A stretch of DNA of 64,000 nucleotides from Acidobacteriota bacterium (GTDB lineage: Bacteria; Acidobacteriota; Terriglobia; Terriglobales; SCQP01), in assembly GCA_027459505.1 (NCBI GenBank), contig DAIDIE010000022.1, forward strand, positions 88,819 through 152,818. The letters run 5' to 3'. Positions 25,660-60,273 of this stretch are shown piece after piece. The stretch's first letter is position 1. The number at the start of each line of letters is the position of its first letter. A program made the translations under genes and the position numbers. The notes beneath the pieces were generated by a model. That model was given only the letters and a program-made list of their open reading frames with translations. It was not told where the DNA came from and made no database searches.

Positions 25660-25756
25660 AGAGTGGAAGTTGCTCCACTCTGAACAAGCGTGGAGGATGG
25701 GGAAGTGTGCCTCCCAAACGCTCCAGAAAGAGGAAACCGGAACAGAGCAGTTCCGG
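25660..25756 (+). promoter_or_regulatory. three consecutive hairpins in the 5' UTR of the GH18-NodB-GT2 gene
   Basis: AGAGTGGA/TCCACTCT (25660-25681), GCG.GGAGG/CCTCC..CGC (25688-25721), CCGGAAC/GTTCCGG (25737-25756), ending 11 nt before ATG 25768. Confidence 0.5.
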
Positions 25757-25767
25757 GCGGTGAATGG

Positions 25768-28700
25768 ATGGAAAAGCAGCCAATTTTCTTTGATCCCGCT
25801 CGGCGCCGCTGGAAGCGTACGTTGCGATTGCTGAACCTGGCCGCCGTTCTGGGTGTCGTCCTGTTGGCAGGTTTTATTTTTGAGCTCGCCCACAGTGTGA
25901 GCTTACCGGCGCTGATCCTTCATCCTCATCCCAACGCCTATCCCGTCCGCACCGTTCCCCACGGCCGTCATCCGCGCTTTACGCGTGTGCGTTACCGGCT
26001 GCGTTATCGCCGCTATCCGAAGCTCCGCCATCGTGGCAAGAACGGAGGTATCCGCGCGGCCTTTTACGTGAACTGGGACGCACCCTCTTACGCCTCGCTT
26101 CGCACCCACATACGCGATTTTGATTTCGTTTTTGCGGAATGGCTGCACGCCATCACTCCGGACGGAGAGGTGGAGTCGACTTTCGATGCAAACGCCGATT
26201 GGGGCAATCGCGACTCGGCGATTCAAAACTGGATCCGGCGGGAAAAATCCAACGTCAAGATGATTCCCTTGCTGAACAACTATGACGGCAGCGTCTGGCA
26301 GGGAGACATCCTGGCGCAGGTTCTGAGCGATCCCGATAAGCGCCAGAATCTGGAACAGCAGGCGGTGAATTGGGTCGTGGAGAACCATTACACCGGGCTG
26401 ATGGTCGATTTTGAGGGCCTGCCGCGCAGCGCGCAACCTGACTACCAGGCTTTTGTAGCGGAGCTGCATCCCATGTTGCAGGCCGACGGCTTGAAGTTGT
26501 TCCTCTCGCTCCCCGTCACCGATGACGATTACAACCTGGGGCATTTTGCCAGGAATGCCGACACCGTGCTGCTGATGGACTACGATCAGCACACCCCGGA
26601 CAGCGCTCCCGGCCCGATTGCCGCCCAGGACTGGTTTGACACCAATTTGCGCTCCGCCATGCGCGTGATTCCCCACAACAAGCTGATGCTGGGGCTGGCG
26701 AACTACGCCTATGATTGGCCCGCCGGCGAGCGTGCCAGCACAATCAGCGTGCAACAGGCCCTGCTCGACGCGGATGAAAGCGGCTCGGCGCTGAGCTTTG
26801 ATCCCATGTCGCTGAATCCCGAATTGCAGTACAGCGACGATACCGGACGCAATCACCAGGTCTGGATGACGGACGCGTTGACCGCGGTGAATGAAATGCG
26901 CGTGGCCTCCAGCCTGGGGATCAACTCGTTCGCGGTGTGGCGGCTGGGATCGGGCGACAATTCGCTGTGGCCGGTTTTTGACAAAGCCAACGATAATACC
27001 GCTGTGCGCAAGGCGCTCTCCCACCCCCCCCCTGGCAATGAAATCGATATCGAGGGCAAGGGCGACATCATGCAAGTTGCCGGCGCACCCGAAACCGGTG
27101 AGCGCACGATTCACATCGACAAGTCGTCTTTCCTGCTTACGGATGAGACTTATTTGCGCTACCCGCAGGCGTACCGCATTGAGCAGTACGGGTGGGAGCC
27201 GAAGACCGTTGCGCTTAGCTTCGACGACGGCCCCGATCCGCAATGGACGCCGGCCATTTTGAAAATTCTCAAGCAATACAACGTTCCCGCGACGTTTTTC
27301 GAAATCGGGGTGAATGCCGAGCGCTATCCCTCGATTGTGCGCCAGGTTTACCAGGACGGGAACGAAATTGGAAACCACACCTTCCTGCACCCCGATGCCG
27401 CCGATATCACCAGCCTGCAGTTGCGGCTGGAGCTGAATGGAACGCAAAGGCTACTGGAAAACATCCTTGGGGTGAAGACGGTTTTGTTCCGCCCGCCCTA
27501 CGGCGTCGACAGCACTCCGGAAACCAACGACGAAGTCGTCCCCCTGCAGGAAGCCGAGCAACTGGGCTATATCGTCGTGGGGAATAGCATCGACCCGCAC
27601 GACTGGAAGCATGGCAAGACCGCGGACGAGATTGTCGACGGTGTCTTCAATCAACTTGGGGATGGCAGCATCATCCTGATGCACGACGGAGGAGGCAATC
27701 GCGAGCAGACGGTGCTGGCGCTGCCCCGCATTTTACAGGGCTTGCGCGACCGCGGTTATCGCATCGTTCAGCTTTCCGACCTGATGGGCAAGACGCGCGC
27801 CGAGGTCATGCCAAAGCTGGGACGCTGGGATTTGATCGAGGTGCGCCTCGCCGGATCGCTGTTCCTGGTGCTGCGCTGGATTGAGACCGCCATCATCTGG
27901 ATCTTTTTCGCCGGCATCGTTCTGATGGGCGTGCGCGTGTTTGTTATCGGTTTGCTGGCGATCCTGCAGAAACTCCGGCCGCATCGCCCGCATTCGGATT
28001 ACGCCCCTCCCCTTGCCGTGGTTATTCCGGCCTACAACGAATCCGCGGTCGTGGTCAACACCGTGCATTCGGTTTTGCGCAGCCGTTACGAAGATTTCCG
28101 CGTCATCGTCGTCGACGACGGTTCCACCGACAACACCTTCGAGTTGCTGCGTGAAAACTTCGCCCTCGATCCACGCGTGGTGCTGTTGCACAAATCCAAC
28201 GGTGGCAAGGCTAGCGCGTTGAACCTCGCCATCTCGCAGGTGCGGGAAGACGCCTTCATCACCATCGATGCCGACACCAATATTGACCCGGATGCGCTGC
28301 GTTTGCTGGCGCGCCACTTGAGCGACCCCGCGGTGGGCGCGATTGCCGGAAATGCGAAAGTCGGCAACCGCATCAATCTTGTGACCTGGTTCCAGGCCGG
28401 CGAATACATAACCAGCCAGAATCTTGAACGCCGGGCGCTTGATGTCCTCAACTGCATTACCGTGGTCCCTGGCGCCATTGGCTGCTGGCGCTCCGATGTC
28501 GTGCGGAAGGTGGGCGGTTTCACTGATGTCACCGCCGCCGAAGACGCGGATCTGACCGTAACCATTCGCCGTTTGGGATACCGCATCGTTTACGAGGACG
28601 GCGCCTGTGCCTATACCGAAGCTCCGGTCACGGTGCGGGCTCTGATGAAACAGCGCTTCCGCTGGTCCTACGGCATTATGCAGACGGTGTGGAAGCACCG

Positions 28701-29127
28701 CGACGCCTTTGGCCGCGAAGGCACGTTAGGCAAATTCGCCTTACCCAACATTGTTGTCTTTCAACTCGTCTTGCCGCTGCTCGGCCCCATCACCGATTTC
28801 ATGCTGGTTTTCGCCTTGCTGATGGAATGGTTCGAGTACACCATGCACCCGCAAAGCTGGACGCCTGACAGCCTGGAGCGGCTGCTGTTTTTCTTCGCCG
28901 TCTTGATGCTCATTGACGTGCTGGGTTCGGTGCTGGCCTTTGCCCTCGAGCACAAAGAACAGTGGACGCTCACTGGCTCCGTTCTGCTGCAGCGCGTCCT
29001 CTACCGTCACGTCATGGCGGTGGTGATGTACCGGACTATTAAACATGCCATCAAGGGCGGCGATTTTCATTGGGGCAAGCTGGACCGCACTGGAACCGTC
29101 AAGCCGCAGCCGGTTTCGGTGCCCTAG
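25768..29127 (+). CDS. trifunctional fusion: GH18-like domain, NodB polysaccharide deacetylase, family 2 glycosyltransferase
   Basis: GLMVDFEGLP (GH18-like), VALSFDDGPDPQWTPAILKIL...HDGGGNREQT (NodB), PLAVVIPAYNESAVVVNTVHSVL...QRFRWSYG (GT2 QxxRW); start chosen at MEKQPIFFDP. Confidence 0.93.
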   Translation: MEKQPIFFDPARRRWKRTLRLLNLAAVLGVVLLAGFIFELAHSVSLPALILHPHPNAYPVRTVPHGRHPRFTRVRYRLRYRRYPKLRHRGKNGGIRAAFYVNWDAPSYASLRTHIRDFDFVFAEWLHAITPDGEVESTFDANADWGNRDSAIQNWIRREKSNVKMIPLLNNYDGSVWQGDILAQVLSDPDKRQNLEQQAVNWVVENHYTGLMVDFEGLPRSAQPDYQAFVAELHPMLQADGLKLFLSLPVTDDDYNLGHFARNADTVLLMDYDQHTPDSAPGPIAAQDWFDTNLRSAMRVIPHNKLMLGLANYAYDWPAGERASTISVQQALLDADESGSALSFDPMSLNPELQYSDDTGRNHQVWMTDALTAVNEMRVASSLGINSFAVWRLGSGDNSLWPVFDKANDNTAVRKALSHPPPGNEIDIEGKGDIMQVAGAPETGERTIHIDKSSFLLTDETYLRYPQAYRIEQYGWEPKTVALSFDDGPDPQWTPAILKILKQYNVPATFFEIGVNAERYPSIVRQVYQDGNEIGNHTFLHPDAADITSLQLRLELNGTQRLLENILGVKTVLFRPPYGVDSTPETNDEVVPLQEAEQLGYIVVGNSIDPHDWKHGKTADEIVDGVFNQLGDGSIILMHDGGGNREQTVLALPRILQGLRDRGYRIVQLSDLMGKTRAEVMPKLGRWDLIEVRLAGSLFLVLRWIETAIIWIFFAGIVLMGVRVFVIGLLAILQKLRPHRPHSDYAPPLAVVIPAYNESAVVVNTVHSVLRSRYEDFRVIVVDDGSTDNTFELLRENFALDPRVVLLHKSNGGKASALNLAISQVREDAFITIDADTNIDPDALRLLARHLSDPAVGAIAGNAKVGNRINLVTWFQAGEYITSQNLERRALDVLNCITVVPGAIGCWRSDVVRKVGGFTDVTAAEDADLTVTIRRLGYRIVYEDGACAYTEAPVTVRALMKQRFRWSYGIMQTVWKHRDAFGREGTLGKFALPNIVVFQLVLPLLGPITDFMLVFALLMEWFEYTMHPQSWTPDSLERLLFFFAVLMLIDVLGSVLAFALEHKEQWTLTGSVLLQRVLYRHVMAVVMYRTIKHAIKGGDFHWGKLDRTGTVKPQPVSVP

Positions 29128-29136
29128 GCCGTTCTT

Positions 29137-29745
29137 CTAAAGGTAGGTCTTGACCAGCTCCGCTTTGCGCCGGCACAAGGGGCAGTCCTGTTGCGCCCAA
29201 TATTGCGGCTGAACGCGCGCCAAATAAAACAGGGGCACGTCTTTGGGAAGTTCTTCCGCCCCGGCCAGCGGCTGATGCACCAGGACCGCCAATCCCAGTA
29301 CCTGCGCCCCGCAAGATTCCACCAAGGCCTTGAGTTGTTTCAGCTTGCGCCCAGTGCGGTAGATGTCGTCCACCAGAATCACCTGCTCCCCTTTGTGATC
29401 CTCCATGAACTGCCGGAACGCCAGGTGGTCATCTTCCTTTTCCGCCCAGTACGTCTGCGCCGCGCGCAGCGCTTCGGAAATGCCATAGGCGACCGGCAGT
29501 CCGCCCGTGGCCGGCGCCACAATGCTCACCTTCGGCAGATGGCGCCGGATTTCGTCGTTCGCGCGCAGTAGCCGGCTCAGCCCTACGCTCAGCACCTTGG
29601 ATTCCGTGTAGTGCCGCATCGCCAGCGGAAGCTGCAAGTAGATGTCGGAATGCAGTCCGTTCGGATTCAGGAAATGGCCTTCCCGCAGGGCGCCGGTAGA
29701 GGTTAACAGCTCGACCACTTCCGCTGGGCTGGGAATCAGTTCCAT
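29137..29745 (-). CDS. orotate phosphoribosyltransferase-like protein
   Basis: GHFLNPNGLHSDIYLQLPLAM, VILVDDIYRTGRKL PRPP-binding motif, C-terminal CPLCRRK. Confidence 0.82.
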   Translation of the reverse strand: MELIPSPAEVVELLTSTGALREGHFLNPNGLHSDIYLQLPLAMRHYTESKVLSVGLSRLLRANDEIRRHLPKVSIVAPATGGLPVAYGISEALRAAQTYWAEKEDDHLAFRQFMEDHKGEQVILVDDIYRTGRKLKQLKALVESCGAQVLGLAVLVHQPLAGAEELPKDVPLFYLARVQPQYWAQQDCPLCRRKAELVKTYL

Positions 29746-29842: not shown

Positions 29843-29858
29843 TGTGAGCGGCGTCACA
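29843..29858. promoter_or_regulatory. CRP/FNR-family binding site candidate
   Basis: TGTGA-GCGGCG-TCACA, perfect TGTGA-N6-TCACA palindrome. Confidence 0.6.
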
Positions 29859-29866
29859 AAATGGGG

Positions 29867-29872
29867 TATACT
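29867..29872 (+). promoter_or_regulatory. -10 element TATACT
   Basis: TATACT 7 nt upstream of the A of ATG at 29880. Confidence 0.55.
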
Positions 29873-29879
29873 CTTGGGG

Positions 29880-29951
29880 ATGTCGCATGCCAAGCGGAAC
29901 TCGGCGCCCTGTTGTTGTCGCTGCAGCCTGAGTCTGCCTGGTGAGCGCTAA
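29880..29951 (+). CDS. poly-cysteine leader peptide MSHAKRNSAPCCCRCSLSLPGER
   Basis: ATG TCG CAT GCC AAG CGG AAC TCG GCG CCC TGT TGT TGT CGC TGC AGC ... CGC TAA; four Cys in five codons; lies between a TATACT box and an intrinsic terminator upstream of sulfite reductase. Confidence 0.72.
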   Translation: MSHAKRNSAPCCCRCSLSLPGER

Positions 29952-29990
29952 GCTTCTACCCAAAGCTTAACTACAGTCCACGAAGACACG

Positions 29991-30024
29991 CCCACCGCAG
30001 AGGAGCCTCCCCGGTGGGTTTTTT
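29991..30024 (+). terminator. attenuator terminator
   Basis: CCCACCG...CGGTGGG followed by TTTTTT, 35 nt upstream of the reductase start codon. Confidence 0.82.
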
Positions 30025-30058
30025 GTTGTCCGATTTTTCCCAAGTGTGATCGCAAATC

Positions 30059-31723
30059 ATGGCTGATACCACCCACGAGACCACGGCGCAGAAACAGGAG
30101 CGCCTGAAGAAACTGCAGAACCCCTGGGAAGAGCTGCCGCGGCTGTTCAGCTCGTTCCGCAGCGGCTTCTATTCCATGTCCCCGGTGGACCGGGATATGC
30201 GCTTGCGCTGGTGGGGACTCTACACGCAGGGCGATGGCGGCGGCGCCTTTGGCGAGATGGCGCCCTACTTCATGATGCGCGTCCGCACCCCCAATGGCCT
30301 GCTGAGTTCGCAACAGATGCGGACGGTGGCTTACATCTCGCGCCGTTATGGGCGTGGCCTGGCGGACATCACCACGCGGCAGAACTTCCAACTGCACTGG
30401 CTGGAGGCGGAAGAACTTCCCGACATCATGAACCGTCTGGAGGCCGCGGGGCTGACCACCAAATCCGCCTGCGGCGACGATCCCCGCAACGTGACCGGAT
30501 GCCCGCTGGCGGGTGTGGATCCGGAGGAGTTGTTTGATGCCAGCCCCTACGCGCTGGCCATCAATCAGGCGTTGATTGCCGACAATGCGCTGGTGAATCT
30601 TCCCCGTAAATTCAAAGTTTCCGTCAGCGGCTGCCGGCAATGGTGTGTCAATCCCGAAATCAACGACGTGGCGCTGACTGCGCGCGAGTTCAATGGGGAA
30701 TTGGGTTTCGCGCTGCGTGTCGGCGGAGGCCTCTCCAACGCCCCCTTTATTGCCCAGGCGCTGCCTGTTTTCATTAAGCAGAATCAGGTCGTCGAGGTGG
30801 CGCGCGCCATGGGACTGCTCTTCCGTGACACCGGCATCCTGCGGGAGAATCGCGGGAAAGCGCGCCTGAAATTCGTCTTCATTGAATACAAGTGGACGGT
30901 GGAGCGCTTCCGCCAGGAGTTGGAAGCCAAGCTGGGTTACAAACTTCAGGACGCCGCTCCCGATGCCCCACCCAAGCCGGAGTTCCGCGATCACGTGGGT
31001 GTCCACGCGCAGAAGCAAGCGGGCCAGTTCTACATCGGCGCCAGCGTGCTGCGCGGCCGCCTGAATGCGGATCAGGTCGAGGAAGTCGCCGATATCGCTG
31101 AGAGCCTGGCGGGAGGGCAGGTACGGCTCACCGGCATGCAGAACCTGGTGATCACCGGTGTGCCGCAGGCGAATGTTTCTCTCGTGCAGCGGGCGTTGGA
31201 GCGGGCCGGATTGCCGATTCAGGGTTCGGCCTTTCGCCGCGGAACAATGTCCTGCACCGGCAAGGAGTTTTGCAAGCTTTCGATTACCGACACCAAAAAC
31301 TTCGCCGCCGAACTGGTGCGGGACCTGGAGCGGCGGCTGCCGGAGTTCACCGAACCGTTGCGCATCAACTTGAATGGCTGCCCCAATTCCTGCGGACAGC
31401 ATTGGATCGCCGATATCGGCCTGCAGGGCACGCGCGTCAAGACGGCGACCGGCCCGGCCGACGGATTTGACGTCTATCTGGGGGGCGGTTTGGGCGAGGG
31501 CGCCGGAATCGCCAGGAAGACCCTGGCGCGCGTGCTGGGGACGGAGTTGGCGCCGCGCATTGAGTCGCTGCTACGCTATTACCTGCAGCACCGCCACGAG
31601 GGCGACAGCTTTCGCGATTTTGTCCGCCGTGAAGATCCCGGTGTTCTGGCGAAGGTCTTAGGCACCCTGCCGCTTGCTGATGTGCAAGCGAAGCAGACCG
31701 CGGCCGAACCTGCGCTACAGTAA
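30059..31723 (+). CDS. siroheme [4Fe-4S] sulfite (or nitrite) reductase
   Basis: 554 aa; TRQNFQLHWL, TGCPLAG, GTMSCTGKEFC...NGCPNSCGQHWIADIGLQG siroheme/FeS motifs; Cys leader favours sulfite. Confidence 0.92.
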   Translation: MADTTHETTAQKQERLKKLQNPWEELPRLFSSFRSGFYSMSPVDRDMRLRWWGLYTQGDGGGAFGEMAPYFMMRVRTPNGLLSSQQMRTVAYISRRYGRGLADITTRQNFQLHWLEAEELPDIMNRLEAAGLTTKSACGDDPRNVTGCPLAGVDPEELFDASPYALAINQALIADNALVNLPRKFKVSVSGCRQWCVNPEINDVALTAREFNGELGFALRVGGGLSNAPFIAQALPVFIKQNQVVEVARAMGLLFRDTGILRENRGKARLKFVFIEYKWTVERFRQELEAKLGYKLQDAAPDAPPKPEFRDHVGVHAQKQAGQFYIGASVLRGRLNADQVEEVADIAESLAGGQVRLTGMQNLVITGVPQANVSLVQRALERAGLPIQGSAFRRGTMSCTGKEFCKLSITDTKNFAAELVRDLERRLPEFTEPLRINLNGCPNSCGQHWIADIGLQGTRVKTATGPADGFDVYLGGGLGEGAGIARKTLARVLGTELAPRIESLLRYYLQHRHEGDSFRDFVRREDPGVLAKVLGTLPLADVQAKQTAAEPALQ

Positions 31724-31729
31724 TTCACT

Positions 31730-32863
31730 ATGGCTGAAGCAAAAGGGAGCGGCTTGGTTTCGCTGGTAGGCGCCGGGCCCGGTGATCCCGAACTTCTTAC
31801 GCTCAAGGCACAGCGCCGGCTGCAACAAGCCGGCGCTGTGCTTTATGACGAGCTGGTCAATCGCGACCTGCTCCACTGGGCGCCCGCCGATGCGGAACGC
31901 GTCTACGTCGGCAAGAACGAGTTTCGCCACTCCGTTCCCCAGGAACTGATCGCGGAAATGCTCGTCGAGCGCGCCCGGCGCGGACTGCGCGTGGTCCGCC
32001 TCAAAGGCGGCGATCCGTTCGTCTTCGGACGGGGCGGAGAAGAGGTCGAGCGCCTGGTGGCCGCGGGTGTCGCCTGGGAAGTGGTTCCCGGAATCAGCTC
32101 GGGAATTGCCGCCGCCAGCGCCGCCGCTATTCCCGTCACCCACCGTGGCGTCTCTTCCAGCGTCACTTTTATGAGTGGTCACGTAGCCGAAGAGATGGAA
32201 AATACCAGCGGTGAAACCCTGGTGATCTTCATGGGGCTGGGCCGCTTGCAGGAGCTTACCGCGGCGCTGCGGCGCAAAGGGCATGCGGACGCGACTCCCG
32301 TCGCCGTGATCTCCCACGGTACGCAGCCCACACAGCGCGTGGTCACGGGCGTTCTGTCCGATATCGCCGACAAGGCCGCTCATGCTGGTCTGACTTCGCC
32401 AGCATTGATTGTTTTGGGTGATGTCGTAAAGTTTCGCGAGCAATGGCTGGGCCAGGAGACGGGTCCGCTGCCGGCGCGCCGCTTGCCGGCCCTGATCCTG
32501 ATGGCGCACGGATCACCGGTCCAAAGCTGGCATGACAGCATCGACCGGCTGGTGGCTTCGCTGGCTCGCACCGGGCGTTACTGCCGCGCCGCCTATCTTC
32601 CCAAAGCCGAGCCACAACTGCTTGAGGTCATCGGCCAGGCGGTGGCTGATGGGCAGCATTCGATTGTGGTCGTTCCTTATTTCCTTGCCGAGGGGCTGCA
32701 CGTCACCGAAGACATTCCCGAACTGGTGGCGCAGGCGCGCCAGCGCTATCCCCAGGTTGAGATTGCACTGTCGCCCAGCCTGGAGGGGCATCCCGCCCTG
32801 CTGACCGCGGTCCTGGCGCGCGCCGCCGAGGGCGCGGCGTTGTTGCCGCAAACCTCAAGCTAG
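31730..32863 (+). CDS. uroporphyrinogen-III C-methyltransferase fused to a CbiX/SirB-like chelatase
   Basis: VSLVGAGPGDPELLTLKAQRRL, GRGGEEVERLVAAGVAWEVVPGISSGIAA (SUMT); LILMAHGSPVQSWHD...VVPYFLAEGLHVTEDIP (CbiX). Confidence 0.93.
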   Translation: MAEAKGSGLVSLVGAGPGDPELLTLKAQRRLQQAGAVLYDELVNRDLLHWAPADAERVYVGKNEFRHSVPQELIAEMLVERARRGLRVVRLKGGDPFVFGRGGEEVERLVAAGVAWEVVPGISSGIAAASAAAIPVTHRGVSSSVTFMSGHVAEEMENTSGETLVIFMGLGRLQELTAALRRKGHADATPVAVISHGTQPTQRVVTGVLSDIADKAAHAGLTSPALIVLGDVVKFREQWLGQETGPLPARRLPALILMAHGSPVQSWHDSIDRLVASLARTGRYCRAAYLPKAEPQLLEVIGQAVADGQHSIVVVPYFLAEGLHVTEDIPELVAQARQRYPQVEIALSPSLEGHPALLTAVLARAAEGAALLPQTSS

Positions 32864-57771: not shown

Positions 57772-58011
57772 AGGAGCGAGCCACCGAGTCCTCCCTTTCG
57801 GAGAGATCGCCGGAGGAGATCGCAGGTGGACGGCCGCGAAATTCCCCCGGGGTCCCGACAAAGCGCAGTTTGCTTTGTCGGGGTGGGAAGCGCGGCTCCC
57901 TCGCGCGGGAGAGGAGCCCGGCTCGGCGGCTTCACGTTCTCACTGGAGAACCTACCAGCGACCCGACGGAAAGCAATGCCAGCGGGCGGCTCAGGAGACG
58001 AGGCCGTGCCT
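57772..58011 (+). repeat. family A copy A6 (240 bp, long form)
   Basis: aggagcgagccaccgagtcctccctttcggagagatcgccggaggagatcgcaggtgg...cccgacaaagcgcagtttgctttgtcggg...gaggccgtgcct. Confidence 0.92.
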
Positions 58012-58038
58012 CTTTGGGATGCGACATTGCGAGGAGAA

Positions 58039-60273
58039 ATGAAGCACTCGGCACGCTGTACGCTAACTCTGCTGGCATCCATTGCTGTCTCGGCGGCGCT
58101 AGGGTTGCCGGCCACCGCTCAAACACCGCAGGGCAGGCCATGGATGAACACGAGCCTCAGTCCCGGCGCGCGCGCTGACCTCGTCATGCAGAGAATGACG
58201 CTCGATGAAAAGATTCGCCTGATCCACGGAACCGGCATTCCCTGCGACGAGCCGGTCACCCCGGAGAACGCGAAGTCCAATCGCGGCGTGGGTTATGTGC
58301 CTGGCATTGCGCGGCTTGGAATTCCAGCCATCAATATGGCCGACGCGGCTTATGGAGTCCGCCCCAGCGCCGTTGACGGGCGCTACTCGACGGCTCTTCC
58401 CGCCGATCTTGCAGCGGCGGCAAGTTGGGACCTGCGGGTGGCTTATGAATATGGGGCGTTGATCGGACGCGAATTACGCGCCCAGGGATACAACATGAGC
58501 CTTGGTGGGGGCGTGGATATTACCCGTGAACCCCGCAACGGACGTACCTTCGAGTACCTGGGCGAAGATCCCATTCTGGCTGGGTCAATGGTGGCCAGCT
58601 TGATTCAAGGCACCCATTCCGCTGGCGTCATCACTGACATTAAACACTATGCCCTCAACGACCAGGAAAGCGGACGCATGGCGATCAACGCAGTCATCGG
58701 CGAGCGCGCCGCGCGCGAAAGCGACCTCCTGGCGTTCGAGATCGGCGTCACGGAGGGAAGACCCGACGCGGTCATGTGCGCCTACAACCGGGTCAACGGT
58801 GACTACTCCTGTGAAAATGATTACTTGCTCAACCAGGTCCTCAAGCGCGACTGGCGCTTCCAGGGCTTTGTAGTCTCTGACTGGAATGCCGCCCACAGCA
58901 CCGTCAAGGCTTCAAAGGCCGGTCTGGATATGGAGCAGCCCTACGATGTCTTTTACGGGAGCCGCTTCAAAGCGGCAGTTGAAGCGGGGCGGATTCCGCT
59001 AGCGGAGCTCGATGATCATGTGCATCGAATTCTCCGTTCCATGTTCGCCTCGGGAGCAATCGATGCTGCATCTGATCGCGTTGAAGTCGACCCATTTGCC
59101 GATTTGAGGGTTGCTCGCGACATCGAGGAGCGCAGCATCGTGCTCCTGAAGAATCATAACGAAGCGCTTCCTCTGGACCCCACGCGCCTCAAAACCATCG
59201 CTGTGATCGGCGCCCACGCGGATGTTGGCATGATCTCAGGCGGCGGTTCGGCGCAGGTCGATCCGCCCGGGGGCAACGCGATTATGCCTCCCGGCCGGCG
59301 TGGAACTCATTGGCTGGAGCCGATCTGGTTTCCAACTTCGCCCTTGAAGGCCATTGTGGCGCGTGCGCCCGGTGCCCTGGTCCGTTTCGATTCTGGCGCC
59401 GATCCAGCGGCCGCCGCGGCCTTGGCAAGGGCTTCCGATGTCGCAGTCGTCTTTGCCTATAAGTGGTCGACGGAGACCGTGGACCAGCACTCACTGGCAT
59501 TGCCGGGTAACCAGAACCAGCTGATCGCCGCGGTCGCCGCCGCCAACCCGCACACCATTGTGGTCCTGGAGACCGGAAATCCGGTGTCGATGCCTTGGGT
59601 CAAGGCTCCTGCCGCCATCATCGAGGCATGGTATGCGGGCAGCGATGGCGCCGATGCGCTGGGCAACGTCCTTTTTGGCAAGGTAAATCCAAGCGGAAAA
59701 CTGCCCATTACTTTTCCGGTCAGCGATCAGGAGCTGCCACGAAAGATGGTGAAACAGCCGCCCGCGGCGTCGCGGGATACGGCGGCGTTTTGGAGTCTGC
59801 CAAAACTGGAGAGGGGAAAGGGTTTGCCACCCTTCAATGAAGATTACACCGAAGGTGTCGAGGTCGGTTATAAGTGGTTCGACGCCGAGAGGAAGCCCGT
59901 CTTGTTTCCCTTTGGTTACGGTCTTTCATATACGACGTTTAAATATTCACGGCTAGCCGTGAAGGGTGGCGACAGCCCGTCCGTAAGCTTTTTGCTGACC
60001 AATACGGGAAAGCGCGCAGGCGCTGAAGTGGCCGAGGTGTATGCGGAGCTTCCCGCGGCGGCCCACGAACCTCCCCGGCGCCTGGTCGCGTGGAGCAAGG
60101 TGACCCTCGCCCCTGGCGCAAGCAAGACAGTGATGCTGCAGCTGAAACCTAAGTTCCTGTCGGTTTTCAATGTTGAAAAAGACAAATGGTCGTTGATCCC
60201 TGGCGCCTATACCCTCTTCGCAGGCAGCTCCTCGCGGGATCTGCCGTTGAAGGCCACTATTCACCTGAAATGA
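58039..60273 (+). CDS. glycoside hydrolase family 3 beta-glucosidase-like protein
   Basis: MTLDEKIRLIHG, KHYALNDQESGR, SDWNAAHS, fibronectin type III-like C-terminus; start set at 58039 (gaggag SD) because the upstream ORF extension is repeat A6. Confidence 0.94.
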   Translation: MKHSARCTLTLLASIAVSAALGLPATAQTPQGRPWMNTSLSPGARADLVMQRMTLDEKIRLIHGTGIPCDEPVTPENAKSNRGVGYVPGIARLGIPAINMADAAYGVRPSAVDGRYSTALPADLAAAASWDLRVAYEYGALIGRELRAQGYNMSLGGGVDITREPRNGRTFEYLGEDPILAGSMVASLIQGTHSAGVITDIKHYALNDQESGRMAINAVIGERAARESDLLAFEIGVTEGRPDAVMCAYNRVNGDYSCENDYLLNQVLKRDWRFQGFVVSDWNAAHSTVKASKAGLDMEQPYDVFYGSRFKAAVEAGRIPLAELDDHVHRILRSMFASGAIDAASDRVEVDPFADLRVARDIEERSIVLLKNHNEALPLDPTRLKTIAVIGAHADVGMISGGGSAQVDPPGGNAIMPPGRRGTHWLEPIWFPTSPLKAIVARAPGALVRFDSGADPAAAAALARASDVAVVFAYKWSTETVDQHSLALPGNQNQLIAAVAAANPHTIVVLETGNPVSMPWVKAPAAIIEAWYAGSDGADALGNVLFGKVNPSGKLPITFPVSDQELPRKMVKQPPAASRDTAAFWSLPKLERGKGLPPFNEDYTEGVEVGYKWFDAERKPVLFPFGYGLSYTTFKYSRLAVKGGDSPSVSFLLTNTGKRAGAEVAEVYAELPAAAHEPPRRLVAWSKVTLAPGASKTVMLQLKPKFLSVFNVEKDKWSLIPGAYTLFAGSSSRDLPLKATIHLK

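Follow-up and report, generated by a model that had tools for sequence, protein, structure and literature searches.

The stretch of DNA analysed here (the window, 64 kb) belongs to a 4.06 Mb genome and contains, upstream of a sulfite reductase gene, a short cysteine-rich open reading frame followed by several overlapping RNA elements. Judged by its sequence, the gene starting at 30059 is a ferredoxin-type sulfite reductase: its best PDB match is 1zj8 from M. tuberculosis, and its motif PRKFK corresponds to PRKYK in 1zj8 and to PRKWN in plant nitrite reductases. In this family, lysine at the last position of PRK-x-K denotes a sulfite reductase and asparagine at that position a nitrite reductase. 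A CobA–CbiX fusion follows after a gap of 6 nt and is probably part of the same operon. The upstream neighbour is a pyrE-like gene (29137-29745) on the strand opposite to the leader, beyond which a single ORF of 1145 amino acids (25690-29127) appears, by eye, to fuse glycoside hydrolase-like, polysaccharide deacetylase-like and glycosyltransferase 2-like parts. The features of the locus are as follows.

29867-29872, + strand: probable -10 element TATACT, from the sequence, with a start site placed at about 29878-29880
29880-29951, + strand: leader ORF MSHAKRNSAPCCCRCSLSLPGER plus stop, read directly, kept across the order and probably leaderless
29882-29948, + strand: predicted 1:2 protector, formed when the leader ORF is not translated, from the fold without a ribosome
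29910-29924, + strand: putative regulatory cysteine codons TGT TGT TGT (CGC) TGC, read directly, with the cysteine runs of relatives in the same place
29933-29943, + strand: predicted antiterminator 5' arm TCTGC-CT-GGTG, within the leader ORF, from the duplex test and folds
29949-29969, + strand: hairpin of 7 bp, TAAGCTT-ctaccca-AAGCTTA, located at the stop codon of the leader and enclosed by the antiterminator, from the sequence and fold
29990-30024, + strand: intrinsic terminator GCCCACCG, 14-nt loop, CGGTGGGT and T-run, from the sequence and relatives
29993-30001, + strand: predicted antiterminator 3' arm CACCGCAGA (CACC-GCAGA), overlapping the terminator 5' arm and loop, from the sequence and folds
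30059-31723, + strand: sulfite reductase, NirA/SirA family, ferredoxin type, from the sequence and PDB comparison
31730-32863, + strand: CobA–CbiX fusion, siroheme synthesis

Direct reading bore out every coordinate given in the first-pass annotation, which had described a 23-codon ORF at 29880-29951 with four cysteines in five codons, a terminator at 29991-30018 followed by T6, a competing pairing of 29933-29943 with 29993-30001, and a siroheme reductase starting at 30059. The terminator arms are CCCACCG (29991-29997) and CGGTGGG (30012-30018), followed by six T residues (30019-30024), and the stem gains one pair beyond that earlier description, between G29990 and U30019. A simple terminator scan missed this element because the tool permits loops of 3-8 nt and the loop here has 14. 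No covariance-model match to an Rfam riboswitch or T-box reached the gathering score within the window, and NCBIfam holds no model for the leaders.

The distance from TATACT to the ATG of the upstream ORF (uORF) is 7 nt, and the -35 element of this promoter is a poor match. In the leaders of relatives, TTGAC and TANNNT elements were found directly 5' of the uORF. Of the 123 leaders that have a TANNNT, 64 show a gap of 6-11 nt between it and the ATG, a spacing that would place the uORF ATG at or close to the transcription start. The window uORF is therefore probably leaderless, with a start site predicted at or next to its ATG; a start downstream of 29951, which the first-pass annotation had named as an observation that would speak against its reading, is not indicated. 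A perfect CRP/FNR-type palindrome (TGTGA-GCGGCG-TCACA, 29843-29858), the sole such site in the window, overlaps the expected -35 position and may represent a second layer of control; it was not evident in the leaders of relatives. Across all leaders, cysteine is encoded by 538 TGT and 280 TGC codons, and six counted genes of the window use 20 TGC and 2 TGT. Selection for the rarer codon, or against stem pairing, is a possible explanation of the TGT excess in the leaders.

The sulfite reductase gene was present in 313 of 399 sampled genomes of the order, and the named relatives of the window's protein are mostly labelled Acidobacteria, Terriglobia, Acidobacteriales or Acidobacteriaceae. Conservation of the cysteine codons in orthologous leaders had been suggested as a check and was found: of the 107 loci within the order for which upstream DNA was available, 98 have a poly-cysteine uORF before sulfite reductase, compared with 7 of 108 reverse strands of these regions, and 95 have the uORF together with an intrinsic terminator, compared with 0 of 108. 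A stricter uORF scan, in which the terminator was not required, returned 93 of 121 loci, the figures being 2 of 118 for reverse strands and 1 of 85 for segments placed inside the gene. The nine loci without a cysteine uORF mostly carry weaker versions (L004, L065) or have the gene placed behind other genes, and a recognisable terminator is missing at a few loci (L007, L008, L058). Outside the order, the uORF–terminator pair was seen in 1 of 10 members of the phylum (L053). It was also seen in 3 of 8 close-homologue loci (L261, L266, L267) of the phylum of the Gemmatimonadaceae record L171, several of the remaining loci of which have the sulfite reductase gene behind other genes, and at one further locus titled Gemmatimonadetes (L226); phylum labels beyond the Acidobacteriota are those of the record titles.

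Beyond the cysteine codons, the tail of the leader ORF is complementary to the 5' arm of the terminator, often reaching into its loop, so that the two pairings are mutually exclusive. Since relatives do not provide independent observations, each cluster entered the pairing tests through a single representative. For the 28 sequence clusters, the tail/terminator-arm pairing had a mean energy of -17.1 kcal/mol, versus -14.1 for dinucleotide shuffles, -13.7 when partners were exchanged among clusters and -10.6 when the part of the ORF before the cysteine codons was used instead (Stouffer z of -6.2; Wilcoxon p values of 5e-5, 7e-5 and 6e-6, respectively). The window's own pairing score, taken alone, is modest (z -1.9, p 0.045). 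An earlier duplex test, in which 28 loci were used without clustering, gave a Stouffer z of -4.2 and is superseded by the clustered one. The alternative stem of the first-pass annotation is kept in relatives as a constant architecture whose sequence differs between clusters, the arms varying yet staying complementary: GAGGTGGG/CCCACCTC before cysD (L128), CTGGCG/CGCCAG in the largest subgroup and GCGGGTTT/AAACCCGC in L053. Covariation within the largest subgroup gave a weak signal, from the flanking pair only (34 of 56 Watson–Crick, p 0.007), because the core CTGGCG/CGCCAG is nearly invariant there.

When the full-length RNA with its complete terminator was folded at equilibrium, the terminator won in all states of the window, even with the ribosome stalled. 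Such folding is uninformative as a test of the switch, which must then be kinetic and decided during transcription, as in the trp attenuator, and truncated, ribosome-masked folds were used instead. With a ribosome on the first cysteine codon and the RNA ending before the terminator 3' arm, the minimum-energy fold of the window is the antiterminator (-23.7 kcal/mol), which encloses the 7-bp hairpin at the leader stop codon, and the antiterminator pairing probability is 0.85 versus 0.40 for shuffled sequence. Over the clusters, the corresponding probabilities are 0.61 and 0.48 (p 2e-4). With the ribosome at the leader stop, the masked fold leaves the antiterminator unable to form, and with no ribosome the leader ORF folds on itself. 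These computed folds, with and without ribosome sequestration, agree with the first-pass proposal that a stalled ribosome would free 29933-29943 and a ribosome at the stop would cover it.

Taken together, the sequence and its comparison with relatives make it very probable that the element acts upstream of the sulfite reductase–siroheme operon as a ribosome-mediated transcription attenuator, with the supply of charged tRNA-Cys as its signal. To the attenuator of the first-pass annotation, which is supported, are added the probably leaderless uORF, the stop-codon hairpin and the regulon described below. From these parts we infer that the leader is translated, that ribosomes stall on it and that it responds to cysteine. 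Transcription would start at or next to the ATG of the 23-codon leader ORF. When cysteine is ample, a ribosome would pass the cysteine codons, reach the stop and cover 29933-29943, the RNA from 29990 to 30019 would fold as the terminator, and transcription would end before sulfite reductase. Under cysteine shortage, a ribosome stalled at the cysteine codons would leave 29933-29943 free; this arm, with the hairpin at 29949-29969 folded within, would capture 29993-30001 before the terminator 3' arm is made, and RNA polymerase would read into the operon. An untranslated leader ORF would fold on itself, making termination the default.

Attenuators of the trp/his type in Proteobacteria have a leader peptide with codons for the end product, a protector (1:2), an antiterminator (2:3) and a terminator (3:4). 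The window leader has in common with them the end-product codons, a terminator before the first structural gene and a computed antiterminator using the terminator 5' arm. It differs in that the amino acid is cysteine, the leader is apparently leaderless, one arm of the antiterminator falls within the leader ORF and the antiterminator contains a further hairpin, placed at the stop codon.

A closer parallel in the leader itself is provided by the polycysteine leaderless sORF attenuators of mycobacteria (Canestrari et al. 2020, doi 10.1111/mmi.14498, as relayed in PMC9031893, PMC13236596 and PMC9094748), for which earlier proposals can be found in PMC4633059 and PMC1262725. Both systems have a short, apparently leaderless ORF with clustered cysteine codons before sulfur genes, several per genome. 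Control in mycobacteria is described as translational (PMC13236596, PMC9031893), and the shared poly-cysteine uORF and near-leaderless start raise the alternative that a ribosome stalled on the window leader would unmask the ribosome-binding site of the next gene, with termination playing no role. This is unlikely, as no Shine–Dalgarno sequence is evident before 30059 in the window, the tail of the uORF is complementary to the arm of the terminator and a conserved terminator with a T-run stands between uORF and gene at 95 of 107 loci. Conserved terminator hairpins were not seen in Mycobacterium (PMC1262725), whereas the uORF described here, from a different phylum, has an intrinsic terminator and a competing antiterminator downstream of it.

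That the ORF instead encodes a functional small cysteine-rich peptide, binding metals or acting in redox chemistry and lying upstream of sulfur genes by coincidence, is very unlikely. Small cysteine-rich peptides can bind metals and no NCBIfam model excludes that role, but the sequence is not conserved outside the cysteine codons, the sole conserved tail (SGAGRLLT, found in a large subgroup) coincides with the terminator-pairing strand, and the ORFs always precede a terminator and gene. Both strands of the window were screened for ATG ORFs of 8-45 codons that contain a run of any one of 13 amino acids and are followed within 90 nt by a terminator; the 29880-29951 leader was the single match. 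A chance cysteine-rich ORF beside the terminator of an upstream transcription unit, of a kind that does arise (the 7 of 108 reverse strands), is refuted by conservation in the order; it is also opposed by the recurrence of such ORFs before other sulfur genes, the uniqueness of the leader in the window and the placement of the upstream pyrE-like gene on the other strand.

The attenuator reading was further compared with the uORFC-8-2 motif of the Rhodobacterales, which lies upstream of cysS and for which sensing of Cys-tRNA is proposed (PMC8632094). Both have uORF cysteine codons followed by a predicted intrinsic terminator. The motif occurs only upstream of cysS, with two tandem cysteine codons at positions 14-15 and a conserved structure (PMC8632094), whereas the leaders described here have runs of 3-8 cysteines before assimilation operons and are variable in sequence; the genes behind them are sir, cysD, cysH, sat and peroxiredoxin, and not cysS. 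According to a broad survey, almost none of the attenuators predicted in Acidobacteria had an assigned function (PMC2965389), and a search for attenuation and leader peptides in Acidobacteria, made in a literature set with few subscription journals, returned no report of such a system. Cysteine-directed attenuation is proposed in the searchable literature only for Actinobacteria and for cysS of Rhodobacterales. An apparently leaderless cysteine leader with a classical terminator and antiterminator, serving a multi-operon regulon in Acidobacteriota and with relatives in Gemmatimonadota, thus appears to be undescribed there. Such a leader would here be joined to a full terminator/antiterminator over several sulfur operons and across two phyla, and the many variants that occur in nature could be used to probe the competition between ribosome stalling and RNA folding. 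The leaders also suggest how abundant, hard-to-culture soil bacteria may sense sulfur limitation.

To locate further leaders, a genome-wide pattern search was carried out, which gave 26 matches versus 21 for the reversed control pattern; among its matches, a short cysteine uORF stood before a sulfur or thiol gene at four places, namely the window and contigs C34, C35 and C24. The leaders found elsewhere in the window's genome are as follows.

Contig C39: cysD–cysN leader MVRTSSHMCRCCCHTTCMWPEVGRNPR, with terminator
Contig C34: cysH–cysC leader MFHMRHTAVCCRCSGATRPGCV, with terminator
Contig C24: peroxiredoxin leader MSTLIRLLCCCCCCCSPSRRCD, with terminator
Contig C35 (L002, G000:C35:18844-23310): second SIR-like gene, cysteine uORF MFHFAPTSAPPTSSAATLLSGCCRCRLSLAR, no clear terminator

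Together with the window leader, these cysteine leaders form a predicted regulon in the genome, and in relatives sat–cysH–cysC (L140, L141) also has such leaders. The uORF of L002 (...GCCRCRLSLAR) resembles the tail of the window leader, CCCRCSLSLPGER. The peroxiredoxin, of the PRK13189 type (G000:C24 near 57990-58861; L246, L270), has a poly-cysteine leader with seven consecutive cysteine codons in the window's genome, followed by a terminator. Peroxiredoxins with a cysteine leader were found in several members of the family and of the order (L271-L274, L278-L280, L282-L286), and some of the leaders precede two tandem peroxiredoxin genes. The cysteine leaders would tie peroxiredoxin to cysteine supply. 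It is a tentative proposal, somewhat more likely to fail than to hold, that poly-cysteine attenuators control much of the sulfate-assimilation regulon in the Acidobacteriota of this order and in some Gemmatimonadota, and that the stalled ribosome, because the regulon includes peroxiredoxin, also serves as a sensor of thiol stress. If true, conditions that drain cysteine would switch on both cysteine synthesis and peroxide removal. The gene cysK, intended as a negative control, had no such leader at 18 of 20 loci. The two others, L297 and L298 (genus g2), have cysteine-rich uORFs, MTASIEPRRCPSCRC and MFASLERRCPSCRC, with terminator-like sequences, and these leaders may be real.
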